From: Desmodus rotundus
Lineage: Eukaryota > Chordata > Mammalia > Chiroptera > Phyllostomidae
Assembly: GCF_022682495.2 (NCBI RefSeq)
Contig: NC_071399.1
Location: 2,895,342 to 2,959,341 of the forward strand
Reading direction: 5' to 3'
DNA: 64,000 nt
Positions within the stretch are counted from its first letter, which is position 1, and each line of letters opens with the position of its first letter. This document shows positions 4,290 to 64,000 of this stretch, one piece after another. Both the position numbers and the translations under genes were made by a program. The notes under the pieces were generated by a model, which was given only the letters and a program-made list of their open reading frames with translations, had not been told where the DNA came from and did no database searches.

Positions 4290-4700
4290 TTATTACATGA
4301 AATGTTAAAGGGACTTACCTAAGAAAAAGAAGATAAAAAATATGAACAGTAAAAATGACAGCAAACTCACAGTTATTAACAACCACACCTAAAACAAAAA
4401 CAAAAGCAAACTAAGCAAACAACTAGAACAGGAAGAGAGCCACAGAAATGGAGATCACATGGAGGGATATCAACAGGGGAGTGGGAGGGGGAGAGAGGGG
4501 GAAAGGTACAGAGAATAAGTATCACAAATAGTAGGTAGAAAATAGACAGGGGGAGGGTAAGAATAGTGTAGGAAATGGAGAAGCCAAAGAAGTTATATGT
4601 AAGATCCACAGACATGAACTAAAGGGGGGGAAGGAGGGTGGGAGGGAGTGTGCAGGGCAGAGGGGAATAAAGGGAGGGGGAATGGGACAACTCCCTGGTT
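4290..4700 (+). mobile_element. L1 3'-end fragment
   Basis: A purine-rich stretch with blocks of GGGGGAGGG and GGTAGAAAATAGACAGGG resembles the 3' untranslated end of bat L1 elements. The related sequence in the duplicate at 55715-56139 ends with an AATAAATATA signal and A-rich tail, as expected for an L1 3' end. Here the tail is replaced near 4695 by unrelated sequence. Confidence 0.55.
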
Positions 4701-16029: not shown

Positions 16030-18678
16030 ATGGCCCCGCACAGGAAGCTGTTGTATTTTGTCTTTGTCTTTTTCTTCATGTTGGTTCAATGTCCACCAGG
16101 TAAATGGGAATGGGTGGGAATTTGATGGCAGAGCATAAGGTTTGATGATTCTTCTCTGTGCCACCCTAAAACTGAGAGGAATGGTCAGCTCCCTGCTGTG
16201 CTTTGCATGGGAAAGTCTTGAACTTGCTGTGGAATTTTCTAAGAGCAAACAGCTATTCCTTTTTTTAAAAAAACACTTCTCCCTGCTTACCAGGAGTAGA
16301 ATCAATCTGCAAGCCCTATGCGGGCTCTCCCTGACAGAAGCTCTGTGGGATTGGGGATACTGTTTTATACAGTGCTATTCCCTGCATTGATCTTGATTTC
16401 CAAAATGTGCTTTGTTCTGATTTAGGGTGCCCGGCAGGACTCGAATATTCCCAGCCCTTCCCAGGAGGTAAGTTCAGTCCTGCGTGTTCTGATTTTCCTT
16501 TAGGGACTCTGGCCAGTCAGCTCCCTCTCACTTCCAGAGACAAGCGAGCGATGGAGATAGCAGTGAAGATAGAACTGCCTGAACTTCGCTAAGGCTTGAC
16601 TTTTCTTCCTCCTATTCCCAGCATCCTACTTGGATTTTCTATTTCCCAGGGAAATCTCTGTGTGACTGGATTTTAATCTTGGCCACAGAGATTTGGACCT
16701 GTTGGCTCCTCTCATTAGCTCATGGCGACCTCTAAACCCAGGTCACAGGATTAAGCTTGGACTGACTGATGAGCATTGACCTGGGGACCTGCTTGTCCAC
16801 CTCTTACAGGCTCCTTCCCAAATCCAGTGAAGCATGAAACAAATGCATGTTACTGGTCTAAGAAGGTCCAACAAAGGAGTGTTCTAGAACCATTCAGTGA
16901 AAACTCCCCCTCTTAGAGAATGGCTGTTCTTAATGGAGAGCCCATGCGTTTTTGTTTGTGTTTTTTGGTGGACTCATACAGGAATAAAGCATATTATAAA
17001 CAAAATGAAAAAAATAATGTTATTCAGGAACTGCAAACAGAATTGAAAAGTGTTCAGACAGAATTTCAGAGTGAGAAAAATTAAGGCTGATACTAGTCGC
17101 TGAGTGTTCTCACTATGCACCTGGCAGTCTATTAACAACTCGATGTGGATTATCTCATTTAATCTTCACAACTTCCCTAGGAGGTAGGTACTGTTATAAC
17201 TGCCCATTTTGCAGATAATGAAACAGGGAAGTAGGTGAGCTAGTAAGTAACTTTGCCCAGGGGTTACAAATAATGAGTGCTAAGCCAGGCTTCTGACTGA
17301 AGACATCAGAGTCCTCAGTTTTAATAGTGTGATTCTCAGCCAGGTAGAAGGGCGCCGACACTACTCCCAAGCACAGGCAGCACACAGAGTTCTCAACACA
17401 CCGTGCAGCACAGGATGTAACACTCGGACCACACACTCCCTGACAAGCGCAGACGCTGTCATTCAGAATCATTTCGCCCAACCCACTGGGTACCACCTGC
17501 ATATAAACATCTCCAGAGAGGGTTATCAGGCTGATAGGGGAAGAGTGGGTGTTCTTGTGCTGCTGCCCATGGCCTTGAAGAGATAATTCCTGGTATTGCA
17601 GAGTAGACCAGATTGGAACACCACATCATTTCATGTCTTACCTGCATCTAAGGCTGAAAATGCTGATTCTCTCCTGCCTCTCGCAGGAAGACAGGCTGAG
17701 GCCCCAAAGCACAGCCTTCAGCAAATCTAGGTGAAGAGAGGTGGAGCTTACAGAAGCAGGGACTGCATGGCAGGTACTACAGAAGATCCCAGGTGAGGAA
17801 GGACATGGACATTTAGCAGTAGAAAAATCATAAAAGTAGGAGCTAGATGTAAACAAGGAATTGAGGAGTCTGAGATTTGGCTATTGAGTGGAGGGCCCCT
17901 GGAGCCTCAGAATTGTATTGCAGAGAAGGTACAGGGTAGAGAAGAGACACTGGTTCTTTCTAGTGTCATCAGGAGACTTTTGGTGGCATCTGTGGTTGGC
18001 AGAAGGGCGTCTTCAGTAGAAGTTTAGTTTTTGTCTTTCCTCGTTTCCAAAGTAGGCTAGAGGCAAAGTCACAGGGACTTTGTTTCAGAGGCCACCGGAA
18101 TTTTTGTCCCAGTTGTGGTGAGTGCACAGCATGGAGGAGAAGAGGGGCTGATGTGAGTCTGGGCTTGCTAGAGCAGAGGTGGGGGAATGGCTTTGACTCT
18201 GACAGTGAACTTCACAAAGGGACAAACAAGGTAGTCCCCAGGGAGCACAGTAAGTTCCAACACGACATCTGTACTGTGAGGTTCTGTAATCTCTGCAATG
18301 CCGGTGGTGGCCCTTTGACCAGGCAGCCTGAGAAACACAAGGAGAACAGGGGTGCTACCTGACTCTTGCTGGAAAATGAACTGTCTCCAACTCCTTTTTG
18401 AAAACAGCAGAGCTCTTTGAAAAATCTAGGCTAGTTCTTGAAAACACGCTCTTGCATCCTAACTACACCCCCTCCCCTTGGTGGCCCCTGGCCTTGTCCC
18501 CATTCCCAGAGCCCCAGGAAAGGCACAGGAGCAGTTCTTTCTCGGTGCAGGTGAGTTTGCGGCTTGTGAGTCATGCAGACTGGGCCGGGGCAAGTGCAGA
18601 CGGATGTGCACGGAGGACGAGAAGGTGGTTGGCGTCTGCAAGCTGAACTTCTTCTGCTGCCGCCGGAGGATCGACTGA
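16030..18678 (+). CDS. DEFB105: Beta-defensin 105
   Basis: There are three coding exons: 16030-16099, 16426-16467 and 18551-18678, all joining in phase 1 with GT-AG borders, giving 79 residues. Exon 1 encodes the signal peptide MAPHRKLLYFVFVFFFMLVQ. Exon 2 encodes CPAGLEYSQPFPG. Exon 3 encodes GEFAACESCRLGRGKCRRMC and ends KLNFFCCRRRID. The order, three-exon structure, GLxxSQPFP linker and CESCxLGRGKCR block identify DEFB105; the human protein has 78 residues. The third exon carries seven cysteines, as in human, including the terminal CC pair. This is a secreted cationic peptide, mainly epididymal in other mammals. No stop, frameshift or splice defect is visible. It lies about 4.2 kb from DEFB106, transcribed in the opposite direction. 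Confidence 0.95.
17120..17270 (-). mobile_element. MIR SINE remnant in DEFB105 intron 2
   Basis: MIR-like words include TTATCTCATTTAATCTTCAC, GGAGGTAGGTACTGTTAT and CATTTTGCAGATAATGAAAC. Confidence 0.65.
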
Positions 18679-25100: not shown

Positions 25101-25225
25101 GGCAAATACGTTGTGAAAAGATGGATGGCCGCTGTGAGGTGGAATGCCTTTCCTTTGAAGTAAAGATTGGGGGCTGCAGAGCTGAACTGACACCATTTTG
25201 CTGCAAAAAGAGGATGAAAAAGTAA
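22102..25225 (+). CDS. DEFB107: Beta-defensin 107
   Basis: Exon 1 (22102-22159) encodes MRIFPLTIAGLLLLAQIFS. Exon 2 (25083-25225) encodes ARGGIQRQIRCEKMDGRC, then EVECLSFEVKIGGCRAEL and TPFCCKKRMKK before TAA, giving 66 residues in all. The join is phase 1 with GTAAGG donor and CTCAG acceptor. The FEVKIGGCRAEL block is diagnostic of DEFB107. Human DEFB107 lacks the first defensin cysteine, with Ser in its place; here that position is Cys, so all six are present and three disulfides are possible. The bases before the ATG read ACG CCT GGC GCC, aligning with the human MPGA start. Translation here therefore begins at the second human Met. The 2.9-kb intron holds only unique-looking and old repeat sequence, plus a frame at 24418-24672 with no recognisable domain. 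Confidence 0.95.
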
Positions 25226-32600: not shown

Positions 32601-32724
32601 CAGGCCTTAAAAGGGCAGAGGGGCCAGCCTCACTCTTCATTGCAAGACCTGCTAGGCCTTGTAAGCTTCGCTCTGCAGCGGGAGCTTTCAGGTGGCAAAC
32701 CTCATGAAGATTGTCTCCGGAGGC

Positions 32725-34269
32725 ATGGAGGCTGCATCTCTGGACCGAGCAGAAGAGTCTCAGCTCAACGTCTCTCCAACACTCAACCCTGCTGGGTCCA
32801 ACGCAGGTGCAGCCGAAGCCCGCCCGGGACGCCTCCGCTCGGAGAACCCATCGCTGCCGCCGCCCCAGATAGTGCGCGCCCTGCGTGATGCGCTGGCTCC
32901 CACCCAGAACGGCCCGACGTGGAAGACACCCTATGGGGTCGGAGCTGGGCTGTGGAACCTGGGGAACACATGCTACGTGAATGCGGCCCTGCAGTGCCTG
33001 ACCCACACCCCGCCGCTGGCCCGCTACCTGCTGTCCCGGCGGCACTCGGAGACCTGTCTGAAGCCGACGTCCTGCGTCCTGTGTTCCATGCAAGTTCACG
33101 TGAGTCGGGCCCTCCTGCATCCCGGAGACGCGATCCAGCCCCCGGAGGAGCTGCTTGCCGGCTTCCACACACACCAGCAAGAAGATGCCCACGAGTATCT
33201 CATGTTCACCATGGACGCTATGCAGCAAGCCTGTCTGCGTGAGCTTGGGCAGCTGGCCGGGCCCTCCGCGGACGCCACCCTGATCCGTCAGATATTCGGA
33301 GGGTACTGGAGATCTCAGATCCAGTGTCTCAGCTGCCACAGCGTGTCTGACACCCTGGACCCGTACCTGGACGTTGCCCTGGATATCCAGGGGGCTCGGA
33401 GTGTGACCCAAGCCTTGGAGCTCCTGGTGACACCCGAAAAGCTGGACGGTGACAATTGCTATCAGTGCAGCGTTTGCCTCAAGAAGGTGCCTGCTTCCAA
33501 GACCTTGACTTTGCACACTGCCTCCAAGGTCCTTATCCTGGCCTTGAAACGGTTCTCGCATTTCACAGGCAGGAAGACGGAGAAGGTCGTGGACTATCCT
33601 GAGCGCCTGGACCTGCAGCCGTACCTGTCTCAGCCGAACTCAGGACCCCTTGTGTACGAGCTCTATGCCGTGCTGGTCCACGCTGGGCGGTCCTGTCACA
33701 GCGGACATTACTTCTGTTTCGTGAAAGCTGCCGACGGCCAGTGGTTCAAAATGAATGACGCGAAGGTCACTGCCTGTGACGCTTCTTCTGCCCTGCGACA
33801 ACGTGCGTATGTCCTCTTCTACGTCCAGGAGACTGAGTTGGAGAGAGGCAGTGCGAGTGTGTCTGTAAGCAGGAAACGGAGGTGCCTCAGGTCGGAGCGG
33901 AAAGTCCTGGGATCAACCCAACAGGGGCCTGAGAGTCACTCCAGCATCACAGGTCCTGGGTCGGAATGTCCTGTGCAAGAGAATTCAGTCAAGCGCAGGA
34001 CCTTAGAGCAGCGGGGACTTCTCCAGGAGCCATCCCGACCCAAGCCAGAGTTCAACCTCAGGGAAGTGGAATGTGCCCTGCCAGCCAGCGTGACTCACCC
34101 ACCCAGAAACAGGGGTGGTATGGCCAAGCATCGTCCCAGACAGGAAAACGAGCTTCTCAATGGTGCAGCCAGAGGGAAAGCCCAGGCTAACAGGAGGAGG
34201 AAGACAGGGAAGCGGTCTCTGCGTGTAGTCCAGTATTCTCCACGGCACCTTCCGAGGCCATTGGACTGA
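32725..34269 (+). CDS. USP17L: USP17-like ubiquitin-specific protease
   Basis: This is an intact single-exon gene of 514 codons when started at the ATG at 32725. That ATG has G at -3 and +4 and aligns with the human start; an upstream in-frame ATG at 32704 has a poor context. USP17-like (DUB/USP17) enzymes are cysteine proteases that remove ubiquitin and influence cell-cycle and immune signalling. The Cys box is GLWNLGNTCYVNAALQC with catalytic Cys83. The QQEDAHEYLMF and FGGYWRSQIQCLSC blocks follow, the latter with a CX2C zinc-type pair. The His box is HSGHYFCF with His328, and the acid residue is in KMNDAKV (Asp345). The C-terminal 140 residues are basic and diverged, like those of the family. 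Length is close to the human 530. The catalytic triad is complete, so an active enzyme is expected. A TTAAAAGG word at 32607 may act as its TATA. Confidence 0.93.
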   Translation: MEAASLDRAEESQLNVSPTLNPAGSNAGAAEARPGRLRSENPSLPPPQIVRALRDALAPTQNGPTWKTPYGVGAGLWNLGNTCYVNAALQCLTHTPPLARYLLSRRHSETCLKPTSCVLCSMQVHVSRALLHPGDAIQPPEELLAGFHTHQQEDAHEYLMFTMDAMQQACLRELGQLAGPSADATLIRQIFGGYWRSQIQCLSCHSVSDTLDPYLDVALDIQGARSVTQALELLVTPEKLDGDNCYQCSVCLKKVPASKTLTLHTASKVLILALKRFSHFTGRKTEKVVDYPERLDLQPYLSQPNSGPLVYELYAVLVHAGRSCHSGHYFCFVKAADGQWFKMNDAKVTACDASSALRQRAYVLFYVQETELERGSASVSVSRKRRCLRSERKVLGSTQQGPESHSSITGPGSECPVQENSVKRRTLEQRGLLQEPSRPKPEFNLREVECALPASVTHPPRNRGGMAKHRPRQENELLNGAARGKAQANRRRKTGKRSLRVVQYSPRHLPRPLD

Positions 34270-37200
34270 AGACCCAGGTAAGGGAGCATGGGGACCTGAG
34301 GGTTTGACATGGGCAGACGAAAGGAAGAGAGCAGGGGAGGTTTGGAAATGAGAGGGAAGGAAAGGAATGGGGGTGCTGGGGTACAAGGGGGCCTGGGGCC
34401 TGACCTGATGGGAGGGGTGGGGAGGGGAGAGGGGGCAGGACAGGGGCACCTGGCCCGGGTAAGGAGCAGGCACCTGGGTAACTACTGAGAAGGTGACTCT
34501 CCCGGTTTCCCGAGGTGGATCAAAGGCTAGCACGTGAGCTGTGAGGAGAGCATGGATCCAACTGGGGGGAAACCGGTGCAGAAGACAGGAGGGACCAGAG
34601 GGTGAAGAGGCTGAGAGGAAAGAGGGAACAGCAGCTAGGCCGGAGACCAGAGGGCCATGGAGGGACTGCCTTGCCCCAGTCGGCAGGCTCCTCGTTTCAA
34701 GTTGTGAGGCAGAGGTAGCCTGGACTCACCTGCGTGTGTGTCTGCCTGTGCGGGCGACTTCATCTCTTCATCAGAAAAATAGCCAACCCTCTCCCAGGAA
34801 AGGTCTGTTCAAGGTCTAATAGCCAAAACCACTGAAGTCCTTCCTAAGCAAAGTTACCATAAAAAGAGTGACACAGACCCAAAGTAACGACTGTGATCAC
34901 AGAAATAAACAACTGTAATAGTGATGTTTCAGTTAGACTCTACGACATAGTTGGAAATTAAATTTAACCCCCTACGTCAATGACAATGACCCAGTAAGGG
35001 GACCCCTGAGGTCCGTGGACTCTGTCCTAGGATTGCTTCATATCCCGCGGTCGGGCGCTTTCTACTTCATTCCCCGGACCGCGGCGCCCTCCAAAGAGGC
35101 TCGCCACCCCTCGCCCCCACTGGCGCCCACACAGGTGGGCTTCTGCAGGTCTCCATACTGTGGGCACCTGGGTGGTGGCTGCATTTCATCATTTGCACAT
35201 ATTTGACCTCCCTGTGGCTTTGCATTTACCTTATATATACTCTTGATTGACCTACCCCCAGGTCCAAATCCTGGAACAGGGACCCTGCCCTGCCGGCTCC
35301 TCACCTAGCTCCGCGGAACCAGCCCTGATTTCCCACAGCTGCTGGGGACTCCGTCTGGCCACCCCTCCCGCAGAGGCTGCCTGTTGGTGATCGTTCCCCC
35401 AATGGACTTAACTCACGCCAGGCCACCCTGCGCCTGAACGAGGTGCGATCATCCACTCTCAGTATCAGCCTTTGAGGCGCGGTTAATCGGGTCCTCTCTG
35501 AACAATATGTCCCTTTTACTGTGGGAATTAAACAAAGCTGCACCCACCGTGTGGTCTAATTTAGTTATTAATTGTTCATTTGGTTCCTAATTGTTACAGA
35601 GGGCATCTGTTAGAAATTGGAGTGTCATCAATAATGTTTTCTGGTGAAAAATTTTCTTACCTCTGAATATGTGTAATTACCCTCTATTTAATGTTTCATA
35701 TTTCAATGAGGGTGTTTTACATTTTTTTCCAAAACAGTCTCCAAAGGCTTTCCTAACGGTCCATGATGAACTGATTTTTTTGGTTGTTGTTTGTAGAGGG
35801 TATCGTCAGTAATTATTGTTCATATTATAGCATATGTTACTTAAGACTATGGGTATACAAACTTGCATTAGTTATGTAAGGCTACAATGCAGTGGCTGGG
35901 CGTTTTGAAACTCCCACTGTGCGCACCCCACTAACTGTAGGGATCGTGGTCACAGCGCAGTGTTATTGGCTGTGTCAGCGTCGCCTTTCCGCCCATCCCC
36001 CTACTGTGTAAATTGTATTTACTTATTCAAATTGGGTTGTACGTTTAGTTGTAGCTGCACCTCCCTCTTCCTCAGCCATTTCAGAGGGAGACACGGTGCC
36101 GCAGGGTATTGGGTTTTGAGTCTGGTAAATTATGAAATCCACAGTGAATGTTTGTATAATGAATGTAATGAAGCAATGACTTCTTATAGGATGATATTTT
36201 CTAAAGAAAGCCATCTTAAGATGGACATATTCTCTTTTTGTTGAATTATCAACTGGGACCCTTTTTGCAGCCCTTGGAGAGCCCTGGGTCTCAGGTCAGG
36301 GTGGGGGAGGGGGCACTACCTCTACAGGGCAGGCGGCTCTCCTGGGCTATATCTGACCCTCCCTGACTCTGAGGGTCACCTGCTTTGCACGTGATGTGTC
36401 CAGCAGGACGCCATCCTTAACTGACTGGGGTCTCTGCCCTCTGGTCCTCCTGGCAGCCTCACCTGGTCTTTTCCTCAGTTCTGGTATCTTAGCCCATCGC
36501 TTTGGCCAGCAGCTTCCTCTGGGATCCGGGACAGCAGGGGTACACTGAGCGAGCACCCAAGATCCTGGGCCTCTGTGGAGGAGCTAGACATGTCGGCCTG
36601 TTTTCAGGGGGATGGCTGCCCTCTCTGAGATTTACTGCTGAGGATGGGACCTTTCCTTGGACACCTGAGGTGACCTACAACATCCAGAGGCACAGTCCCA
36701 GGATGGCCTTTGGGCCCATTATTCATCAGAAGCAGTGGCTCCCTGTGCACCTAAGCTGACGTGGGCCTGGCTTCCAGGGGAAGCACAGAAGGGAAATCAC
36801 ACAGGTTGCTCGGTCTCTCGGGAGGTCAGAATTGCCGCTGACTTCAATGTGGGGGGTCAGAGGTGGAAACGTGTACTTTCCTAGGCAGAGGATAAAATTC
36901 CTTCCTCATCACCCTCACAGACGGCATTACATTTTCCGACCCTGCCGCTACCTTGGAGTCCCTTGGGGACATATATATACACACACACATATATATATCT
37001 GTATATAGTCCCCCTTGGAGACTGCCTTATTGGTCAGAGCACAGGTGAGCCAAGGGTATCTTGGGAGCGTTTCCCTTGGTGTTGAGGTTCAATGTTGGCT
37101 TTGCTGAAGTGCATCATTCCCAGCCCTGGGGACAGAATGGAATAATCCCCTTTGTGAGAAGCCCCGTTTTGCTCGGGGAAAGCACATTGTGTTAATTATT

Positions 37201-38767: not shown

Positions 38768-43577
<4,810 letters not shown>

Positions 43578-49393: not shown

Positions 49394-50203
49394 CCTGAGA
49401 AAAAGGGTAATGATCAAAATCACGGGAGAAGGTAACCATGATCAAAATGACCATCACTGCGACATAAATAATGAGAATTCTAATAGTGACCGTCACTACA
49501 TTCTGCAGAGGAGTAAATGATCTTGTGGAGTCTGCTAAATGCACGACGATGCACACAATGGACTATGATGGGAACTCGCCCTCCCAGGACTGCACCAGAA
49601 ATTGCTTCCTCGAGGGCGGGAGGAAGGAGCTGGCCCGTGCTCTTTCTAAGGAAATCCTCTCTATGGAGCCATAGGGTTGACCCTGACCTCGTCTGAACTT
49701 GTCCTGAAGTAGAGGATGGAGGGAGCATGACTCAGATGATAATTAGACCCTCACTTTCTGTGGCTCTCCCATATGGCAGCCCATTACCACCACCTGGGGA
49801 ACTTTGAAATACCTAGTGCCCCACCCTCTGACAGACACAGAACCTACAAATTACTTAGAGTGGGACTCAGGAATGAGTGTCTATGAAAACCGACCAACTA
49901 AGCCCAAAGTGGGCCGAAAGCACACTCAGCCTGCGCACAAGCAAATCTCATTTCCAGCTACATCAGACTCACAAGAGCAGATCTTGAATATTTAAGTACT
50001 GACGCTGTCCAGCCGAGTGCACCTGAGGTCCTGCACGGCCAGGAGCCTCTCTGTCCTACCAGACTCCCCGCCACTCTCAGTGAAATGCGCTTTGAGAAAT
50101 AATCACTGTTTTAAGATGACCGGCCATGCTCAAAAGTGAAGACCAACTACAACATATATTTGGTAGAATTTTATTAAAAATGGAAAGGACTGGTAAATAC
50201 AAC
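49394..50203. other. Arm sequence downstream of FAM90A copy 2
   Basis: No gene recognised. Only short frames that are mirrored in the right arm occur. Confidence 0.5.
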
Positions 50204-50204
50204 T

Positions 50205-50210
50205 TTATTA
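50205..50210 (-). terminator. Polyadenylation signal of FAM90A copy 2
   Basis: AATAAA on the minus strand (ATAATAAAGTTG), about 560 bases past the stop codon. Mirrored at 63185-63190. Confidence 0.5.
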
Positions 50211-50766
50211 TGACGTTTCATAGACAAATGTACAAAGTCAGCAGAAGGGGCCCCGTCCTGCTTTCCACTGAAATCACTCCGCGCAGTGGACACTCTCCCC
50301 TCAGGACAGGCGCTGCTTCCACATGCAGGTCACACAGGTGAGCCTGCCCCCAGTGTCCCCAAAGTGCGGCAGGTGCAGACCTTCTAGAAATTCATTACCT
50401 AGCTTCCTAATTACAGTAGAGTTTAAAAGCTACTATAGCAAACTTACTTAATTTCCTATATAATCAATTTAAATTTACAAACTTAACTTCACATACTAAA
50501 AAATACCGCTAGGAATATCACCTAACCTACACGACTTAATAAACAAATACCATGAGAAATATCACTTAACCCACACCATTAAAAAGAGCCATATTTACAC
50601 GTGTGTGTCCCCAAACATGATCCAGATTCCCACCAGTTGTCCACACAGCACAGCAGGGGCATGGCTGGTTGCCCAGAAACAGCTGCTCCTGGTGACTCCC
50701 CCTCCCCAGTTCCACAGTCCCCCCCAGGATGCCCAGTGTGGAGGAGAGGTCTCGCAGACGGGCGGC

Positions 50767-53614
50767 TCACTGGTCATCACTGTCTTCAGAGGAGGAGGAG
50801 ACCCGCGGGTCCTCATACAGGACACTGGAAGGGAGGTGGGCACAGGGTCCCTCTCCCGTCCCTGGGGAGGGAGCGCTTCGAGCAGGAGGGGCCAGCTCCT
50901 CAGCAGGCCACACGGAGGGAGTGGTCAGGAGCCTGGAGCTCCACTGGCCCCTCTTTAACCTTGTGAAGACCATTCTGAGGGGCTTGCCTCGTCCCTGGGG
51001 AGCCGCAGGGTGCTCGGACACAAGGCAGTTGTGGATGGTGTCCCGGGGAGCTTCCTTGTGTGGAGGCTGCAGGTCAGCACACCGTCCCCGGGCAGGTGTC
51101 TTCCTGGGTGCCTGAGGTGCCGGTGCAGGTCTGAGCGCAGGAGCACTTGCTGGAGGACAGAGGGGCTGGACACAGCCCGGGTCTGCTCTCGGCATGCTCT
51201 TCTGGGGGGGTGGGCAGGAGCCGAGTCTGGGCTTCTTTCGGGGGTTCTGGCAGGTGGGCACAGGGCTCTGTGCAGCCCTCTTGCCAGGTGCCTTGAGGCT
51301 GACCTTGGAGTCCTGGCCAGAAATGTGAGCAACAGCAGGTCTGACGCTTGGTGGCTTCACATCGGGGTGCTTGGCCTGTGCCTGAGGGATGAGGGCATCA
51401 CCTGGCCCATGTGACTTGGAGCCAGGACCCTGGACAAAGCCTGTGCCTTCTGGGTGATGGCTCTCAGTCACAGGCACTCGCTGTGCCTGACTTAGTCCCC
51501 GTGGTGAGTAGGTGCTCCTCTCAGCTCTGTGGATGGGAGTCACTGTGAATGTCATGTCAGCTTTCCAGACAAGGGACCTACTGGTGAGACCGGGGTCTCC
51601 CACACATCTCCTCTGCGTCCTGTAGACGGGCAGAGGCTGGTTTTGGTGCTGGAGGCGAAAACAACAAGAGATTACACATTAGAATGTCCCCTCCATCAAG
51701 GACAAAATAAGAGGAAACAGTAGGAAAATGAATTTCTTGAAGTGAGACATACACAGAAATTGCTGTGCCCACAGTCAGGGTACAGGTGAGCAGGTTGCTG
51801 ACCTCAGAGCTGGTCACTGGGACAGAAGTCACCAAGTCCCCCCCACACCAATCCTGCCAGCAGTCAAAAAACAAAGTTCTTCCAAGCATCCCCTGTTAGC
51901 GAAGGGGAAACAAGCCCTGTGCTTCCCGCGTTCAGGGGAGGGAGGACTAACTCAGGGTGTTTGAGGGCAATTTGAAAACTAATGAGCTTGGGAGGTATTT
52001 TGGGTGTAGGGGTCCCAGTTTCCACATGCCCATTCTCCCCTAAGGGATCGCACCTTCTGGAAACATCTAGGGAGATCATGACCTCACCCTCCAGCAGCAC
52101 ACTGTCGGCCCACATGCAAGTGTAAGGCACAATCAGAGACACCCCGGAAGGTGACATCAGAAAACTACCTTCCTGGAACCAGCCAGGTCCCAGTAGAAAT
52201 CCCTCAGGAGCACACTGAGGGGAGTCTAGGTGACCCCGAGGACAAAAAGAGATGGGACACCAGGGACACTCACCCTCACGTAGTCACAGGATTCTGTGTG
52301 ATCCTTCCAGGGTGCCTGCAGCCTCTCCAGGGGCCTTCTGGGAAATCTCTGGAGCAGAGCCTGTCTCTTCTGGTCATCTTGGCTACAGGACAGAATATGG
52401 TGAGTGAAAGTCACACCACCCTTTGTCCCCAGTGGACACCAACCTTTCTGTGGCCCAGGCCCTACCCCGTTCCCATGTGAGCCCAGGAGTGAGGCCAGGG
52501 GCCTTTGCCGCACTGGCCCTCCCCTCACCTCAGACCCTCCCTCCTTCTCTCCCCCAGGGAGCCCTCCAGACTTGTCCATGAAGGACTTTCGTTCCACACC
52601 ATGGCCTCTCTGCCTGTCCATCTCAGAGTCCCAGGCACTCCCACCGCTGCCACAGACCTCCACTTCCCCAGTGATCCCCCAGGGGGAGAAAGACCGCCTG
52701 AGTGTGTCCCTGGAGAAACAGGTCTCCTTCTCTCTCTCCCTGTCCCTGTCCTTGCCTGGAGATGGCAGTGCAGATGGTGGAGGCATAAGGGACTCAGCCC
52801 CATGGATTTCCCCCAAGGTTGGGCTCCAACCCCCACAGTGCTCACCTGGGCCTCTGCTCCTTCTCCCTCGCCGGCCCTGCAGCGGACCCTGGAGTCCCGG
52901 GGTCCCGGGGTGTGCCAAGTTTCCGGTTCTCCTTCATCTTATGGGAGCCCAGGGGCTGGGGGATTAGGGCCCCATCCCATCGCTTCATGGGACACCTCAA
53001 GCTGCTTGCCTTGTGCCCAAAGGCCCCACAGTCCTTGCATTTCACCTAAGGGTGGAGAATGGGGACAGTGGGTCAGCCCAAACCTCAGGCAGATTTGAAA
53101 GGAGATTAAGAGGACTGACTTCTAGACCTTGAATATGGGTTAGGGACAAGGGCAGAAGTCTTGGGATGACCAGGTATTGGAGATATTACGGGAGGTCCCA
53201 CAGCCGGCGTTAGTGAGAGGAACGCAGGAGAAACAGTTTCAAGTATAAGCAGGGACACTTAGAGCAAATGGAATCATTTGGACACAAAACGGGCGGCAAG
53301 GACCCTAGCTAGGAAGTGAGGTTGTTCCCAGGAAATCCAAGGGACCAACCTGCCTGGGGAGCATGGCCCCAGGCAGCTGTCCCTTCAGTGGAGAAGGACC
53401 CATCAGTGATGGGCACAGAACCTGCCATGTCCACACTCACTGTCTCTGGCAGTTGCCACCCCCAGGCTCCCCACAGCACCAAGCCCCTACGCACCCTGGG
53501 ATCCTCCTCTTCGGCTGGGGGCACCCTAGGAGTCACCCGGGCCCTCGGCTGCTTTTGCCCCTTCTGGGCCCTCGGGGGCTGGCGGGGCCTGACCTGTGTG
53601 TGACGACCTGCCAT
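50767..53614 (-). CDS. FAM90A: FAM90A-like gene, copy 2
   Basis: Complete four-exon coding sequence: 53614-53495, 53045-52846, 52382-52274 and 51648-50767, totalling 436 codons plus stop (human FAM90A1 has 464). Exon 1 ends EEEDPR. Exon 2 carries the zinc knuckle CKDCGAFGHKASSLRC. Exon 3 encodes QDDQKRQALLQRF, matching the human QRKALLHMF segment. The long last exon is proline- and basic-rich, with NPRKKPRLG (like the human FPKKPRLG) and the acidic serine end SSVLYEDPRVSSSSEDSDDQ. Phases 0/2/0 are consistent and there is no stop within. FAM90A function is unknown; the knuckle suggests nucleic-acid or protein binding, which is inference. It lies in the left palindrome arm, about 7.1 kb of coding and flank away from its mirror copy. 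Confidence 0.92.
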
Positions 53615-54853
53615 CTGCCACACCCACTTGAAGCTTTGCCTCAGTCTTGCTCAGCTCTAAATGTGCAGGACTCCTGAGGGGAAAAGAGAAAACTCTTCAA
53701 AATCCCTCAGAGAGAAAAGTTCCTAAAGCAGCTTCTGCCCCAAGTGGGCATGAAGGGACCTCAGGACCACTCAGGACAACCACCTGTCCAACCCTGTCAC
53801 CCCTCTTTCTCAGAACAGTGATCCCCCTCCCCTGAGTACCAACCCCCAGGGCAGGGCTCTAACCTCCCTGCCCATCCCCCATGGCGGGGCTCTAATCTGA
53901 TAGCCCATCCCCCAGGGCTGCATTCACAACTGACTGCCCCACCCACCAGGGCAAGTTTCAAACAGGACTGCCCCACTCCCTGTGGCAGGGCTCTAACCTG
54001 ACTGCCTACACCCAGGACCTCTGGGTCCCTAAGGAGACTTTTTATTGCCAGGACAGGACTCTAAGCTGAGGCTCAGCAGGTGAAATGGGATGAGTGATCT
54101 AAGAGCCTTTGGTAGTTGGAGCCCCTGCTCCCTTCTGGGACAGAAAGACAGTGTTCCCCACACCCACCCCGTTATCGGTGCCGCACCGACTAACGTGCCT
54201 CGCGCAGCAGAAAAGCACAGCGAAGGTGCTCTGCTCTGGGAAATTTGCATTTCCCGTCGGACAGAAGAGGAGGCAGTTTCCAATGCAATTTCACTGAGGC
54301 TAAAACATTTTCTCCTCTGCTAGACTGAAACCTTCACTGCTGAGAGGCTAATCTGCTTTTTTTAGATAAATAACTTTGCCCTCCGTTTTCTATTGTTAAC
54401 GAGTTTCCAATAAATGTGAAATGACTGTGTTTGAACTCTGTCTGAACCTGTCCGTTATGGCCCGGGCCACCCCGTTTCTATAAGGGCGCCCCCCCCTGCC
54501 CCACGCCGGCTCCCACAGATCACAGCGCTGGGTCCACTACCTTGGATATCGACTCTCGGACTAACAGTTAGCATTGACCAGATGCCTTTTGTCCACCTCT
54601 CTGCTCAGATTCACCATGCAAGGAAGAACCCTTACCCCACTCCCTAAAGCCTCCCCATTCCTAGTTGCTAGTGTCCCCTCTGTCGGAGGAACAGTCTAAG
54701 GACCCGAATGAAAGGAAACCCACCTGCAGTCGCCTGGGCTCTCGGGTCTGCCAGCGGATTGTCAGAACCGTCGGTGCCGGACCAGCTCCAGGGGAAGCGG
54801 TGCACCTTGCTGGCGCTGAGAAGTTACCGGGGCAGGTTCCAGTCCTCCTGGGC

Positions 54854-54860
54854 TTTTATA
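54854..54860 (-). promoter_or_regulatory. TATA box of FAM90A copy 2
   Basis: CTCTATAAAAGCCC on the minus strand, upstream of the non-coding first exon whose donor (GCAG/GTGGGT) lies near 54724. The nearby octamer-like word is changed to ATGCTAAACGG, unlike copies 1 and 3. Confidence 0.6.
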
Positions 54861-54949
54861 GAGGTCCCAGGTCTCGCGAGAACACGTAGCTCCCCATCCG
54901 TTTAGCATACCCCCCCGGGGAGGGAGGGGCCAGGTGCTCATCACTTTAG

Positions 54950-55595
54950 CATACCCCCCAGGGAGGGAGGCAGGTCTCGAAGGGACGCCCTGACCTTGGT
55001 CCTTCACGCTTTGCAAGGGTCTGCACCTTCTGGTCCTCAGGTGCTTCCCGCTCGGAAGCTGTGCCTCCCGTTAGAAAATCAAGCCCCTGGGGACTTCGTG
55101 CTGTTTCCTTCTGCATCGCCTGCTGACTGCGGCGGTGGGCCCAGTGAGAGCCGAGGTCTAGGGACGCGCTGAGCGCAGAGTCCCCTGGCCCCGAGCCGGC
55201 GGCGCCGCGGCGGGGCCCCATCGCCTTCGCCTGCTCCCGCCCGCCCGGGTCCCATCCGCACTTCGGGGTCTGGGCATCAGCAGCGCCTCCGGCCTCCCCG
55301 CAGACCCTGACTGTCCGCTGTCCCCGCCGACGTCCTCGTCGTCCCTGCGCTGCTGAGCTGGGAAATGCACCTCGCGGGAGCCCGCGGTTTTGGCCTTTCG
55401 GCCTGGCTTCTTGTGCACTTTGCCTTGCCACTCAAGTCCCCGTCCCTGCGTGCGTGGTCCCCGCGTGGACACGGGGAGCTCCCTGTCCCTGCCTGTCACA
55501 GTCTGTTCCCCTGGATGGGAGGAGACGCACTGGGGCCTGCTGGCTCCGCCGGTGCCGCCATTGGTCGGGAAGGCATTCTTCCCGCCACCTCTCGC
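54950..55595. other. CpG island upstream of FAM90A copy 2
   Basis: The same CG-rich block as in copies 1 and 3, located just upstream of the TATA box. No independent gene is supported inside it. Confidence 0.6.
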
Positions 55596-55714
55596 ACCAG
55601 CCACCTGGTCGTGGGTAGTTCGAGGGGCCCCTATTGCGTCTGTTAAGACACACTGAGGTTCTCAGATAAGGTCCAGTTAAAGGAGTTCATCATCACCAAG
55701 CCCTTATTACATGA

Positions 55715-56139
55715 AATGTTAAAGGGACTTACCTAAGAAAAAGAAGATAAAAAATATGAACAGTAAAAATGACAGCAAACTCACAGTTATTAACAACCAC
55801 ACCTAAAACAAAAACAAAAGCAAACTAAGCAAACAACTAGAACAGGAAGAGAACACAGAAATGGAGATGACTTGGAGGGTTATCAACAGGGGAGTGGGAG
55901 GGGGACAGATGGGGGAAAGGTACAGAGAATAAGTAGCATAAATGGTAGGTAGAAAATAGACAGGGGGAGGGTAAGAATAGTGTAGGAAATGTAGAAGCCA
56001 AAGAACTTATATGTATGACCCATAGACATGAACTATAGGGGGGGAATGTGAGAGGGAGGGGGTGGGCAGGATGGAGTGGAGTGAAGGGGGGAAATGGAAC
56101 ATCTGTAAGAGCATAATCAATAAATATATTTTTTAAAAA
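55715..56139 (+). mobile_element. L1 3' end in left arm
   Basis: Purine-rich L1 3' untranslated-type sequence ending GCATAATCAATAAATATA with a T/A-rich tail at about 56130-56139. A full mirror copy lies at 57256-57680. Confidence 0.65.
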
Positions 56140-56149
56140 AGACACCGTG

Positions 56150-56561
56150 AGGAAGGGACACGTGAATCCCCATATTCGGGCATTTCTTCTTCATTCCCGG
56201 ACCGTGGCGCCCTCCAAAGAAGCTCGCCACCCCGCACCCCCACTGGCGCCCACACAGGTGGGTGTCTGCACTTCTCAGTGGTGCGGGCATGTGACGGTGG
56301 CTGCATCCCGCCATCTGCACGTATTGGAACTCACCGTGCCCTTTGTGTTTACCTGATATTTACTATCGATCAATCTGCCCGCGTGGTAACTCAGGTCCAA
56401 GCCCTGGAACGCAGGCCCCGCCAGCGTGCCCCTCACCTAGTGCAGCAGAACCAGCCCGGACTTCCCCCAGCTGCCTGGGGCTGCGTCTCGCCTCCCCACC
56501 CGCCAGGGGCCGCCTGGCCGCGCTCCTCCCCCCAGTGGACTTAACTCATATTTATTAGAAA
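56150..56561 (+). repeat. Dispersed element copy, left arm
   Basis: Homologous to 35040-35410, from TTCATTCCCGGACCGTGGCG to CCAGTGGACTTAACTCAT. Here the element is interrupted by ATTTATTAGAAA at the arm end. Confidence 0.65.
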
Positions 56562-56833
56562 CTCTTTTACAATAGAAAATAGGGAACAGAATTCTTTTGG
56601 TTTCTGTTTTTCCTAAATAAAAAAGATGAGCGTATCACCTGTGAAGTTTTCAGTCTAGGAGAGGACAACATAAATGATTTACACCAAAAAATGTATGTGG
56701 TAGAAGGGACTTATTATTCAGACAGGACCCGGTTAACCGCGCCTCAGAGGCTCATCCTGAGAGTGGACCATCACATCGCGTTCTGGTGCAGGGTGGCCTG
56801 GCGTGAGTTAAGTCTCGTGACGAGACCAGCGCA
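56562..56833. other. Palindrome spacer, 272 bp, composite
   Basis: This is the only part of the palindrome not shared by the arms. Its left half (to about 56690) is a diverged copy of the FAM90A first-intron stretch near 58976-59100, sharing CAATAGAAAA and TTTCAGTCTAG words. Its right half, read in reverse, is the continuation of the dispersed element (GCGCGGTTAACCGGGTCC-like versus 35490-35507). A 10-base repeat GAGTTAAGTC at 56805-56814 and 56848-56857 flanks a 33-base insertion that spans the arm boundary. Confidence 0.8.
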
Positions 56834-57245
56834 TTTCTAATAAATATGAGTTAAGTCCACTGCGGGGAGGAGCGCGGCCAGGCGGCCCCTGGAGGGTGGG
56901 GAGGCGAGACGCAGCCCCAGGCAGCTGGGGGAAGTCCGGGCTGGTTCTGCTGCACTAGGTGAGGGGCACGCTGGCGGGGCCTGCGTTCCAGGGCTTGGAC
57001 CTGAGTTACCACGCGGGCAGGTTGATCGATAGTAAATATCAGGTAAACACAAAGGGCACGGTGAGTTCCAATACGTGCAGATGGCGGGATGCAGCCACCG
57101 TCACATGCCCGCACCACTGAGAAGTGCAGACACCCACCTGTGTGGGCGCCAGTGGGGGTGCGGGGTGGCGAGCTTCTTTGGAGGGCGCCACAGTCCGGGA
57201 ATGAAGAAGAAATGCCCGAATATGGGGATTCACGTGTCCCTTCCT
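56695..57245 (-). repeat. Dispersed element copy, right arm and spacer
   Basis: Read on the minus strand this is the longest copy of the element in the palindrome. It runs from the body (mirroring 56150-56561) into the spacer, so the element is continuous across the right arm boundary apart from the short insertion. Confidence 0.6.
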
Positions 57246-57255
57246 CACGGTGTCT

Positions 57256-57680
57256 TTTTTAAAAAATATATTTATTGATTATGCTCTTACAGATGTTCCA
57301 TTTCCCCCCTTCACTCCACTCCATCCTGCCCACCCCCTCCCTCTCACATTCCCCCCCTATAGTTCATGTCTATGGGTCATACATATAAGTTCTTTGGCTT
57401 CTACATTTCCTACACTATTCTTACCCTCCCCCTGTCTATTTTCTATCTACCATTTATGCTACTTATTCTCTGTACCTTTCCCCCATCTGTCCCCCTCCCA
57501 CTCCCCTGTTGATAACCCTCAAAGTCATCTCCATTTCTGTGTTCTCTTCCTGTTCTAGTTGTTTGCTTAGTTTGCTTTTGTTTTTGTTTTAGGTGTGGTT
57601 GTTAATAACTGTGAGTTTGCTGTCATTTTTACTGTTCATATTTTTTATCTTCTTTTTCTTAGGTAAGTCCCTTTAACATT
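57256..57680 (-). mobile_element. L1 3' end in right arm
   Basis: Mirror of 55715-56139. Confidence 0.65.
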
Positions 57681-57799
57681 TCATGTAATAAGGGCTTGGT
57701 GATGATGAACTCCTTTAACTGGACCTTATCTGAGAACCTCAGTGTGTCTTAACAGACGCAATAGGGGCCCCTCGAACTACCCACGACCAGGTGGCTGGT

Positions 57800-58440
57800 G
57801 CGAGAGGTGGCGGGAAGAATGCCTTCCCGACCAATGGCGGCACCGGCGGAGCCAGCAGGCCCCAGTGCGTCTCCTCCCATCCAGGGGAACAGACTGTGAC
57901 AGGCAGGGACAGGGAGCTCCCCGTGTCCACGCGGGGACCACGCACGCAGGGACGGGGACTTGAGTGGCAAGGCAAAGTGCACAAGAAGCCAGGCCGAAAG
58001 GCCAAAACCGCGGGCTCCCGCGAGGTGCATTTCCCAGCTCAGCAGCGCAGGGACGACGAGGACGCCGTCGGGGACAGCGGACAGTCAGGGTCTGCGGGGA
58101 GGCCGGAGGCGCTGCTGATGCCCAGACCCCGAAGTGCGGATGGGACCCGGGCGGGCGGGAGCAGGCGAAGGCGATGGGGCCCCGCCGCGGCGCCGCCGGC
58201 TCGGGGCCAGGGGACTCTGCGCTCAGCGCGTCCCTAGACCTCGGCTCTCACTGGGCCCACCGCCGCAGTCAGCAGGCGATGCAGAAGGAAACAGCACGAA
58301 GTCCCCAGGGGCTTGATTTTCTAACGGGAGGCACAGCTTCCGAGCGGGAAGCACCTGAGGACCAGAAGGTGCAGACCCTTGCAAAGCGTGAAGGACCAAG
58401 GTCAGGGCGTCCCTTCGAGACCTGCCTCCCTCCCTGGGGG
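57800..58440. other. CpG island upstream of FAM90A copy 3
   Basis: Mirror of 54955-55595. The open frames of 148 and 161 codons overlap in different frames on the same strand and are not stable among copies. Confidence 0.6.
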
Positions 58441-58500
58441 GTATGCTAAAGTGATGAGCACCTGGCCCCTCCCTCCCCGGGGGGGTATGCTAATGGGATG
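58436..58500 (+). promoter_or_regulatory. Paired GGGGGTATGCTAA motif upstream of FAM90A TATA
   Basis: The word GGGGGTATGCTAA occurs twice about 48 bases apart, each next to a CCTCCCTCCC-type tract. TATGCTAAT resembles an octamer (POU) site with one change. Position 35-100 bases upstream of the TATA box is suitable for a proximal promoter element. Function is inferred only. Confidence 0.35.
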
Positions 58501-58534
58501 GGGAGCTACGTGTTCTCGCGAGACCTGGGACCTC

Positions 58535-58541
58535 TATAAAA
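58535..58541 (+). promoter_or_regulatory. TATA box of FAM90A copy 3
   Basis: CTCTATAAAAGCCC. A non-coding first exon (about 58565-58671) follows and ends at GACTGCAG/GTGGGT. The next acceptor, TTTCCCTCAG, places exon 2 at 59721 with a 59-base leader before the ATG. Confidence 0.65.
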
Positions 58542-59779
58542 GCCCAGGAGGACTGGAACCTGCCCCGGTAACTTCTCAGCGCCAGCAAGGTGCACCGCTT
58601 CCCCTGGAGCTGGTCCGGCACCGACGGTTCTGACAATCCGCTGGCAGACCCGAGAGCCCAGGCGACTGCAGGTGGGTTTCCTTTCATTTGGGTCCTTAGA
58701 CTGTTCCTCCGACAGAGGGGACACTAGCAACTAGGAATGGGGAGGCTTTAGGGAGTGGGGTAAGGGTTCTTCCTTGCATGGTGAATCTGAGCAGAGAGGT
58801 GGACAAAAGGCATCTGGTCAGTGCTAACTGTTAGTCCGAGAGTCGATATCCAAGGTAGTGGACCCAGCGCTGTGATCTGTGGGAGCCGGCGTGGGGCAGG
58901 GGGGCCGCCCTTATAGAAACGGGGTGGCCCGGGCCATAACGGACAGGTTCAGACAGAGTTCAAACACAGTCATTTCACATTTATTGGAAACTCGTTAACA
59001 ATAGAAAACGGAGGGCAAAGTTATTTATCTAAAAAAAGCAGATTAGCCTCTCAGCAGTGAAGGTTTCAGTCTAGCAGAGGAGAAAATGTTTTAGCCTCAG
59101 TGAAATTGCATTGGAAACTGCCTCCTCTTCTGTCCGACGGGAAATGCAAATTTCCCAGAGCAGAGCACCTTCGCTGTGCTTTTCTGCTGCGCGAGGCACG
59201 TTAGTCGGTGCGGCACCGATAACGGGGTGGGTGTGGGGAACACTGTCTTTCTGTCCCAGAAGGGAGCAGGGGCTCCAACTACCAAAGGCTCTTAGATCAC
59301 TCATCCCATTTCACCTGCTGAGCCTCAGCTTAGAGTCCTGTCCTGGCAATAAAAAGTCTCCTTAGGGACCCAGAGGTCCTGGGTGTAGGCAGTCAGGTTA
59401 GAGCCCTGCCACAGGGAGTGGGGCAGTCCTGTTTGAAACTTGCCCTGGTGGGTGGGGCAGTCAGTTGTGAATGCAGCCCTGGGGGATGGGCTATCAGATT
59501 AGAGCCCCGCCATGGGGGATGGGCAGGGAGGTTAGAGCCCTGCCCTGGGGGTTGGTACTCAGGGGAGGGGGATCACTGTTCTGAGAAAGAGGGGTGACAG
59601 GGTTGGACAGGTGGTTGTCCTGAGTGGTCCTGAGGTCCCTTCATGCCCACTTGGGGCAGAAGCTGCTTTAGGAACTTTTCTCTCTGAGGGATTTTGAAGA
59701 GTTTTCTCTTTTTCCCTCAGGAGTCCTGCACATTTAGAGCTGAGCAAGACTGAGGCAAAGCTTCAAGTGGGTGTGGCAG

Positions 59780-62627
59780 ATGGCAGGTCGTCACACACAG
59801 GTCAGGCCCCGCCAGCCCCCGAGGGCCCAGAAGGGGCAAAAGCAGCCGAGGGCCCGGGTGACTCCCAGGGTGCCCCCAGCCGAAGAGGAGGATCCCAGGG
59901 TGCGTAGGGGCTTGGTGCTGTGGGGAGCCTGGGGGTGGCAACTGCCAGAGACAGTGAGTGTGGACATGGCAGGTTCTGTGCCCATCACTGATGGGTCCTT
60001 CTCCACTGAAGGGACAGCTGCCTGGGGCCATGCTCCCCAGGCAGGTTGGTCCCTTGGATTTCCTGGGAACAACCTCACTTCCTAGCTAGGGTCCTTGCCG
60101 CCCGTTTTGTGTCCAAATGATTCCATTTGCTCTAAGTGTCCCTGCTTATACTTGAAACTGTTTCTCCTGCGTTCCTCTCACTAACGCCGGCTGTGGGACC
60201 TCCCGTAATATCTCCAATACCTGGTCATCCCAAGACTTCTGCCCTTGTCCCTAACCCATATTCAAGGTCTAGAAGTCAGTCCTCTTAATCTCCTTTCAAA
60301 TCTGCCTGAGGTTTGGGCTGACCCACTGTCCCCATTCTCCACCCTTAGGTGAAATGCAAGGACTGTGGGGCCTTTGGGCACAAGGCAAGCAGCTTGAGGT
60401 GTCCCATGAAGCGATGGGATGGGGCCCTAATCCCCCAGCCCCTGGGCTCCCATAAGATGAAGGAGAACCGGAAACTTGGCACACCCCGGGACCCCGGGAC
60501 TCCAGGGTCCGCTGCAGGGCCGGCGAGGGAGAAGGAGCAGAGGCCCAGGTGAGCACTGTGGGGGTTGGAGCCCAACCTTGGGGGAAATCCATGGGGCTGA
60601 GTCCCTTATGCCTCCACCATCTGCACTGCCATCTCCAGGCAAGGACAGGGACAGGGAGAGAGAGAAGGAGACCTGTTTCTCCAGGGACACACTCAGGCGG
60701 TCTTTCTCCCCCTGGGGGATCACTGGGGAAGTGGAGGTCTGTGGCAGCGGTGGGAGTGCCTGGGACTCTGAGATGGACAGGCAGAGAGGCCATGGTGTGG
60801 AACGAAAGTCCTTCATGGACAAGTCTGGAGGGCTCCCTGGGGGAGAGAAGGAGGGAGGGTCTGAGGTGAGGGGAGGGCCAGTGCGGCAAAGGCCCCTGGC
60901 CTCACTCCTGGGCTCACATGGGAACGGGGTAGGGCCTGGGCCACAGAAAGGTTGGTGTGCACTGGGAAAAAAGAGTGGTGTGACTTTCACTCACCATATT
61001 CTGTCCTGTAGCCAAGATGACCAGAAGAGACAGGCTCTGCTCCAGAGATTTCCCAGAAGGCCCCTGGAGAGGCTGCAGGCACCCTGGAAGGATCACACAG
61101 AATCCTGTGACTACGTGAGGGTGAGTGTCCCTGGTGTCCCATCTCTTTTTGTCCTCGGGGTCACCTAGACTCCCCTCAGTGTGCTCCTGAGGGATTTCTA
61201 CTGGGACCTGGCTGGTTCCAGGAAGGTAGTTTTCTGATGTCACCTTCCGGGGTGTCTCTGATTGTGCCTTACACTTGCATGTGGGCCGACAGTGTGCTGC
61301 TGGAGGGTGAGGTCATGATCTCCCTAGATGTTTCCAGAAGGTGCGATCCCTTAGGGGAGAATGGGCATGTGGAAACTGGGACCCCTACACCCAAAATACC
61401 TCCCAAGCTCATTAGTTTTCAAATTGCCCTCAAACACCCTGAGTTAGTCCTCCCTCCCCTGAACGCGGGAAGCACAGGGCTTGTTTCCCCTTCGCTAACA
61501 GGGGATGCTTGGAAGAACATTGTTTTTTGACTGCTGGCAGGATTGGTGTGGGGGGGACTTGGTGACTTCTGTCCCAGTGACCAGCTCTGAGGTCAGCAAC
61601 CTGCTCACCTGTACCCTGACTGTGGGCACAGCAATTTCTGTGTATGTCTCATTTCAAGAAATTCATTTTCCTACTGTTTTCTCTTATTTTGTCCTTGATG
61701 GAGGGGGCATTCTAATGTGTAAATTCTTGTTGTTTTCGCCTCCAGCACCAAAACCAGCCTCTGCCCGTCTACAGGACGCAGAGGAGATGTGTGGGAGACC
61801 CTGGTCTCACCAGTAGGTCCCTTGTCTGGAAAGCTGACATGACATTCACAGTGACTCCCATCCACAGAGCTGAGAGGAGCACCTACTCACCACGGGGACT
61901 AAGTCAGGCACAGCGAGTGCCTGTGACTGAGAGCCATCACCCAGAAGGCACAGGCTTTGTCCAGGGTCCTGGCTCCAAGTCACATGGGCCAGGTGATGCC
62001 CTCATCCCTCAGGCACAGGCCAAGCACCCCGATGTGAAGCCACCAAGCGTCAGACCTGCTGTTGCTCACATTTCTGGCCAGGACTCCAAGGTCAGCCTCA
62101 AGGCACCTGGCAAGAGGGCTGCACAGAGCCCTGTGCCCACCTGCCAGAACCCCCGAAAGAAGCCCAGACTCGGCTCCTGCCCACCCCCCCAGAAGAGCAT
62201 GCCGAGAGCAGACCCGGGCTGTGTCCAGCCCCTCTGTCCTCCAGCAAGTGCTCCTGCGCTCAGACCTGCACCGGCACCTCAGGCACCCAGGAAGACACCT
62301 GCCCGGGGACGGTGTGCTGACCTGCAGCCTCCACACAAGGAAGCTCCCCGGGACACCATCCACAACTGCCTTGTGTCCGAGCACCCTGCGGCTCCCCAGG
62401 GACGAGGCAAGCCCCTCAGAATGGTCTTCACAAGGTTAAAGAGGGGCCAGTGGAGCTCCAGGCTCCTGACCACTCCCTCCGTGTGGCCTGCTGAGGAGCT
62501 GGCCCCTCCTGCTCGAAGCGCTCCCTCCCCAGGGACGGGAGAGGGACCCTGTGCCCACCTCCCTTCCAGTGTCCTGTATGAGGACCCGCGGGTCTCCTCC
62601 TCCTCTGAAGACAGTGATGACCAGTGA
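59780..62627 (+). CDS. FAM90A: FAM90A-like gene, copy 3
   Basis: Complete coding exons are 59780-59899, 60349-60548, 61012-61120 and 61746-62627, giving 436 residues. The start ATG follows a 59-base leader from the acceptor at 59720, and the 40-codon first coding exon matches the human exon in length. The zinc knuckle CKDCGAFGHKASSLRC opens exon 2. The KKPRLG and VLYEDPRVSSSSEDSD blocks in the last exon are family hallmarks. There are no frameshifts or stops. It is transcribed away from the palindrome centre, head-to-head with copy 2 across about 6.2 kb between start codons. Some variant sites match copy 1 and others copy 2, which suggests gene conversion. Protein function is unknown. Confidence 0.92.
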
Positions 62628-63184
62628 GCCGCCCGTCTGCGAGACCTCTCCTCCACACTGGGCATCCTGGGGGGGACTGTGGAACTGGGGAGGGGAAGTC
62701 ACCAGGAGCAGCTGTTTCTGGGCAACCAGCCATGCCCCTGCTGTGCTGTGTGGACAACTGGTGGGAATCTGGATCATGTTTGGGGACACACACGTGTAAA
62801 TATGGCTCTTTTTAATGGTGTGGGTTAAGTGATATTTCTCATGGTATTTGTTTATTAAGTCGTGTAGGTTAGGTGATATTCCTAGCGGTATTTTTTAGTA
62901 TGTGAAGTTAAGTTTGTAAATTTAAATTGATTATATAGGAAATTAAGTAAGTTTGCTATAGTAGCTTTTAAACTCTACTGTAATTAGGAAGCTAGGTAAT
63001 GAATTTCTAGAAGGTCTGCACCTGCCGCACTTTGGGGACACTGGGGGCAGGCTCACCTGTGTGACCTGCACGTGGAAGCAGCGCCTGTCCTGAGGGGAGA
63101 GTGTCCACTGCGCGGAGTGATTTCAGTGGAAAGCAGGACGGGGCCCCTTCTGCTGACTTTGTACATTTGTCTATGAAACGTCAT

Positions 63185-63190
63185 AATAAA
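63185..63190 (+). terminator. Polyadenylation signal of FAM90A copy 3
   Basis: AATAAA in CATAATAAAGTTG, about 560 bases past the stop. A second TAATAAAAT follows near 63218. Confidence 0.5.
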
Positions 63191-63229
63191 GTTGTATTTA
63201 CCAGTCCTTTCCATTTTTAATAAAATTCT

Positions 63230-64000
63230 ACCAAATATATGTTGTAGTTGGTCTTCACTTTTGAGCATGGCCGGTCATCTTAAAACAGTGATTATTTCTC
63301 AAAGCGCATTTCACTGAGAGTGGAGGGGAGTCTGGTAGGACAGAGAGGCTCCTGGCCGTGCAGGACCTCAGGTGCACTCGGCTGGACAGCGTCAGTACTT
63401 AAATATTCAAGATCTGCTCTTGTGAGTCTGATGTAGCTGGAAATGAGATTTGCTTGTGCGCAGGCTGAGTGTGCTTTCGGCCCACTTTGGGCTTAGTTGG
63501 TCGGTTTTCATAGACACTCATTCCTGAGTCCCACTCTAAGTAATTTGTAGGTTCTGTGTCTGTCAGAGGGTGGGGCACTAGGTATTTCAAAGTTCCCCAG
63601 GTGGTGGTAATGGGCTGCCATATGGGAGAGCCACAGAAAGTGAGGGTCTAATTATCATCTGAGTCATGCTCCCTCCATCCTCTACTTCAGGACAAGTTCA
63701 GACGAGGTCAGGGTCAACCCTATGGCTCCATAGAGAGGATTTCCTTAGAAAGAGCACGGGCCAGCTCCTTCCTCCCGCCCTCGAGGAAGCAATTTCTGGT
63801 GCAGTCCTGGGAGGGCGAGTTCCCATCATAGTCCATTGTGTGCATCGTCGTGCATTTAGCAGACTCCGCAAGGTCATTTACTCCTCTGCAGAATGTAGTG
63901 ACGGTCACTATTAGAATTCTCATTATTTATGTCGCAGTGATGGTCATTTTGATCATGGTTACCTTCTCCCGTGATTTTGATCATTACCCTTTTTCTCAGG
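63230..64000. other. Arm sequence downstream of FAM90A copy 3
   Basis: Mirror of 49394-50165. No gene recognised. Confidence 0.5.

Follow-up and report, generated by a model that had tools for sequence, protein, structure and literature searches.

The DNA analysed here, referred to as the window, is a 64-kb stretch of the genome of the vampire bat Desmodus rotundus in which FAM90A genes lie together with members of three other gene families. A USP17L deubiquitinase ORF with a UCH domain occupies positions 32704–34269 of the forward strand and agrees with a D. rotundus protein in 467 of 472 aligned residues. On the reverse strand, a C2H2 zinc-finger ORF at 38768–39736 shares 260 of 262 residues with the D. 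rotundus protein P0042, which is listed with a KRAB domain and is matched again at 41651–41523 (43 of 43 residues). A pattern scan returned five beta-defensin-like matches, and all four that were tested in Pfam exceeded the beta-defensin cut-off; these exons lie at 18574–18660 and 25112–25204 on the forward strand and at 9468–9554 and 7932–8018 on the reverse strand. The fifth match, a beta-defensin-like cysteine pattern at 31352 on the minus strand, comes from the regex scan only. A scan of the 64-kb window with Rfam at gathering scores gave zero matches, and a bat-type SINE pattern was found once, with three mismatches.

The four defensin exons confirm the original prediction that the locus is defensin-linked. 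In humans, the part of PMC4255768 available describes FAM90A, USP17L, KRAB-ZNF and beta-defensin genes as a copy-variable set consistent with a core duplicon, and in primates, rodents, horse and dog USP17 is reported alongside FAM90A and beta-defensin genes (PMC2874809, in part). Since this core is known in human and other mammals, linkage of FAM90A to defensins is to be expected (PMC4255768, PMC2874809), and the suggestion that a palindrome is unusual at a defensin locus is a weak one. In the bat, the same four families occur together and with a recent segmental duplication, as in a core of the 8p23.1 type.

Some bat proteins join parts of these genes. P0042, named 'zinc finger protein 124-like', is a fusion of exons derived from FAM90A with a KRAB exon and with the zinc-finger ORF found in the window. 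It touches 38768–39736, 41523–41651 and 52274–55221, and its FAM90A part differs from all three FAM90A copies described below (A, B and C), which suggests another copy or haplotype, plus read-through or an annotation fusion. Near 34.1 kb, a D. rotundus USP17L protein, P0107, departs from the long ORF; it resumes downstream to about 35472, and its C-terminal part matches 35030–35472 and, weakly, both arms of the palindrome. In Sturnira, protein P0073 consists of USP17L joined to FAM90A exons.

The last part of the window is a large inverted repeat. The repeat pairs 49394–54495/58899–64000 and 54491–56561/56834–58904 were detected, with inner ends 272 nt apart, and blastn joined them into a single alignment of 49394–56561 with 64000–56834 (7,168 columns, 99.55% identity). 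The left arm (copy B, forward) thus spans 49394–56561, the spacer 56562–56833 and the right arm (copy C, inverted) 56834–64000, where the window ends. The arms differ by 31 substitutions in 7,167 ungapped columns, 19 of which are transitions, and by one 1-bp indel, an additional base at 54489 in the left arm. This indel shifts the coordinate sum of paired positions from 113394 on its outer side to 113395 on its inner side. These data agree with the arms of at least 7.17 kb, the identity of about 99%, the 272-bp spacer and the sums of 113394–113395 that had been predicted. Since the arm match reaches base 64000, the true arms are probably longer than 7 kb, as was also foreseen for a right arm truncated by the window. 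Chance cannot account for inverted similarity over such a length.

Each arm carries an intact FAM90A gene. Gene B lies on the reverse strand at 50767–53614, with coding exons at 53614–53495, 53045–52846, 52382–52274 and 51648–50767, and gene C on the forward strand at 59780–62627, with coding exons at 59780–59899, 60349–60548, 61012–61120 and 61746–62627. In both genes, the four exons have GT/AG borders and join into a frame of 1,311 bases, in which B and C differ at two positions, both silent, so that the 436-aa proteins are identical. The protein contains a zf-CCHC_6 zinc knuckle (PF15288) near the N terminus, at residues 40–81 (80.7 bits, Pfam cut-off 22). A Pfam search with four single ORFs from the arms gave zero matches, which is explained by the location of the zinc knuckle in a spliced exon. 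A protein search returned 106 matches at E ≤ 0.001 among 7,987 scored; most of the named ones are FAM90A, and among named full-length matches the best is FAM90A26 of Phyllostomus discolor, with 65% identity over 100% of the query. The zinc knuckle, the full-length similarity and the intact frame with consensus splice sites identify both as FAM90A genes, in line with the intact FAM90A-like gene anticipated for each arm. One 278-aa homologue, P0001, has a residue that is absent from copies A, B and C; further FAM90A copies or alleles therefore exist.

A TATA-like string, TATAAAAG, is located upstream of gene B at 54853–54860 on the reverse strand, and C has its mirror image. Windows of 500 bp that are rich in CpG begin at 54750–55250 in the left arm and at 57750–58000 in the right arm. 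The string and the CpG-rich windows are in place and compatible with the promoter and CpG island proposed earlier for each gene, which remain candidates. Judging solely from the intact reading frames, the FAM90A pair would probably act through the dosage of the zinc-knuckle protein.

USP17L 3' relics make up the centre of the palindrome, and the junction there is rearranged. The innermost ∼370 bp of each arm are a relic of USP17L downstream DNA, aligning at 71% and 76% to 35051–35519, the 71% alignment including a 43-base gap. In the left arm the relic extends over 56176–56548 (forward strand, 75.6% to 35051–35415) and is mirrored at 57219–56847. Within the spacer, 56700–56814 is 87% identical to USP17L downstream DNA at 35405–35519, and the left spacer part, 56546–56727, which runs across the left junction, is 67% identical to 54252–54419, a segment of the FAM90A unit that follows the TATA string and precedes the first coding exon. 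The USP17L-related DNA at 35030–35519 (forward strand) is a non-inverted paralogue of the centre. Here, at 35.4 kb, the two homologous parts are joined directly, without 43 bp that are present at the right junction; among these 43 extra bases are 13 forming the inverse of the left junction, together with an 11-bp motif that occurs in both orientations at the centre. A single simple fold-back at the junction was considered and dropped, since both junctions carry additional rearrangement.

In addition to the two arms, the window contains a third FAM90A copy (copy A), which the original prediction did not report and which changes the interpretation of the palindrome. Copy A lies on the reverse strand at 1–4692 and is cut by the window start (coding exons at 2201–2082, 1632–1433, 969–861 and from 235 onward). 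It is collinear with 51414–56104 and oriented like the left arm, about 50 kb away and outside the palindrome. The three copies were compared over 51414–55852, in 4,438 ungapped columns with one gapped column excluded. Private differences numbered 10 in A, 8 in B and 12 in C, and the distances were 0.41% between A and B, 0.50% between A and C and 0.45% between the two arms. The arm-to-arm distance minus the mean of the two distances to copy A is 0 (95% interval −0.22% to +0.22%, block bootstrap), and a chi-square test on the private counts in 51414–55537 (4,123 columns) gave p = 0.67. Measured against copy A, one outside copy that covers 4.4 of the 7.2 kb, there is no excess likeness between the arms over the 4,438 sites.

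Beyond these columns, divergence of copy A from both arms leaps from 0.4–0.5% to ∼12%, with 29 private differences in the 251 columns of 55853–56104. The segment concerned, at 4440–4692, is the end of copy A, which we take to be an L1-like tail, and the jump at 55853 is a probable recombination junction. Taken over its whole length, copy A appears more distant (98.8–98.9% identity), which is misleading since 29 of the 39 substitutions private to it are concentrated in those 251 columns.

The rival explanation, that of the original prediction, is an older palindrome in which gene conversion from one arm to the other preserves the likeness, as happens in ampliconic regions of the sex chromosomes. 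The 99.55% arm identity, the coding part with just two silent differences and the outer portion of the arms are what this explanation would lead one to expect: in the outer part, for which copy A has no counterpart in the window, the arms differ at only 5 of 2,020 positions (0.25%). By itself this 0.25% would suit arm conversion; the inner part from 55853 onward, with 6 differences in 709 positions (0.85%), would not. Where the comparison can be made, however, copy A and the two arms are all about equally distant from one another, and arm-to-arm conversion is not supported. The types of change point the same way. Of the 14 changes private to C, 10 run from G/C to A/T, as for fresh mutation and unlike GC-biased conversion, and the eight private to B have no lean (two in each direction and four neutral). 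Clustering of the differences along the arms falls short of significance (p = 0.06 raw, 0.17 once neighbours are merged), as does their depletion from coding bases (2 of 32, indel included; p = 0.11). At 60959–60974 of the right arm, corresponding to 52420–52435 of the left arm, four substitutions private to the right arm fall within 16 bp; this group may reflect a short tract converted from an unseen copy, or else an error in the consensus.

The level of divergence can also be set against palindromes for which conversion has been described. In the available portion of PMC8981503, the median arm identity of conserved primate X palindromes is 99.953%, or about one difference in 2,200 bases, whereas the bat arms carry one substitution in ∼231 bases. 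If the bat arms are assumed to be at conversion equilibrium and to share the human X mutation rate of PMC8981503, their divergence would imply conversion at ∼4.9 × 10⁻⁶ per base per generation, about one tenth of the X-palindrome rate of 4.5 × 10⁻⁵ given in that source. We therefore regard upkeep of an older palindrome by conversion between its arms as quite unlikely. Near-identity of palindrome arms is no evidence of conversion between them as long as no copy from outside the palindrome has been compared.

Copies of hairpin reads are near-identical to their source, and the commonest error of long reads is the indel. An assembly artefact at this locus, in the form of a fold-back (hairpin) read or of two alleles joined tail to tail, would draw some plausibility from the ease with which repeat-rich loci are misjoined. 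A hairpin copy should, however, nearly equal its source, with a second arm identical save for sequencing error, mainly indels; what was found instead are the 31 substitutions and only one indel. Two alleles would need to differ at the level of paralogues, and the spacer is unpaired DNA with its own paralogues in the window. Since the divergence between the arms matches that of dispersed paralogues, a hairpin artefact is unlikely, and we consider an artefact of either form highly improbable; a misjoin of genuine paralogues, or of alleles of unusual divergence, keeps a small probability.

Because the arms are no more alike than either is to copy A, they look like the product of an ordinary recent duplication and not like a self-repairing palindrome. 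In our view the structure is likely the result of a young, inverted segmental duplication in the beta-defensin/FAM90A/USP17L/KRAB-ZNF core of the vampire bat, by which a FAM90A unit of at least 7 kb was copied; the likeness of the arms would be due mainly to their youth and not to maintenance by the palindrome. The FAM90A unit would have been copied at least twice within a short period, with one copy inverted, leaving two divergently arranged FAM90A genes and a collinear copy about 50 kb off. The inverted copy may have arisen in a fold-back or template-switch event at the short inverted homology in the centre, and the inner end of copy A by recombination inside the L1-like tail. With a mammalian substitution rate of 2.2 × 10⁻⁹ per site per year, the arm distance of 0.45% corresponds to an age of about 1 million years. 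What counts against a recent duplication is that the comparison has a single overlapping extra copy, reaching over 4.4 of the 7.2 kb, that the remaining parts of the arms depart from its distances in both directions (0.25% outside, 0.85% inside), and that the spacer falls below the lengths given in PMC3907307.

The same distances also fit conversion among all copies of the family. Under such concerted evolution by ectopic conversion, the apparent youth of the copies would be the time since their last exchange. All three copies would then be equidistant, as they are, and the sharp shift in divergence at 55853 in copy A resembles the boundary of a tract as much as a breakpoint. Three copies cannot, however, reveal conflicts of shared alleles, and one recent burst of duplication takes fewer events, so that we hold concerted evolution of the entire FAM90A family to be unlikely. 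The duplication we favour is thus a recent inverted one, at a locus that is already known for such events.

A larger event may also be envisaged, in which the 7-kb arms are only the innermost portion of a duplication that mirrors the entire defensin/USP17L/ZNF/FAM90A block. This extension fits the arm that runs off the window, and it fits P0042, in which the zinc-finger part is almost that of the window (260 of 262 residues) and the FAM90A part is unlike all three copies; we put it forward tentatively, as possible but doubtful. If true, the mirrored block would be a large locus prone to inversion, comparable to human 8p23.1 but of independent origin in vampire bats, and a natural second case of that architecture beside immune genes. 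For the FAM90A core itself, the favoured duplication would mean that copying is still recent in a bat. Bats appear in no title among the 40 listed of 95 FAM90A papers, and FAM90A is absent among the best 15 of 5,235 matches to mixed bat terms. The sole match for FAM90A and palindrome concerns, by its title, somatic gene conversion in human disease, and the portion of a bat antimicrobial peptide paper that was available (PMC10562630) contains nothing on the FAM90A/defensin locus.

Three known systems resemble the bat palindrome in part. With the ampliconic palindromes of mammalian X and Y chromosomes it shares inverted arms of more than 99% identity, a spacer and genes within the arms, but its arms are ∼9 times more divergent than the primate X median (PMC8981503, in part) and no closer to each other than to a dispersed copy. 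Human fold-back inverted duplications, for which short spacers and inverted microhomology are reported in the available part of PMC3907307, likewise have an inverted duplicate, an unduplicated spacer and short inverted homology at the junction. These human cases are of megabase scale with spacers of 766–70,466 bp (PMC3907307), whereas the bat palindrome has arms of at least 7 kb, a spacer of 272 bp and extra rearrangement at both junctions. The closest parallel in gene content is human 8p23.1, where FAM90A, USP17L, KRAB zinc-finger and beta-defensin genes are likewise adjacent, multicopy and duplicated (PMC4255768, PMC2874809) and where, according to the part of PMC3942070 at hand, the two defensin clusters are oppositely oriented in the hg19 assembly. 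The bat locus differs from it in that its copies are those of a bat, with a closest named full-length homologue at 65% (Phyllostomus discolor), and in the small 272-bp centre that lies between its two inverted units.
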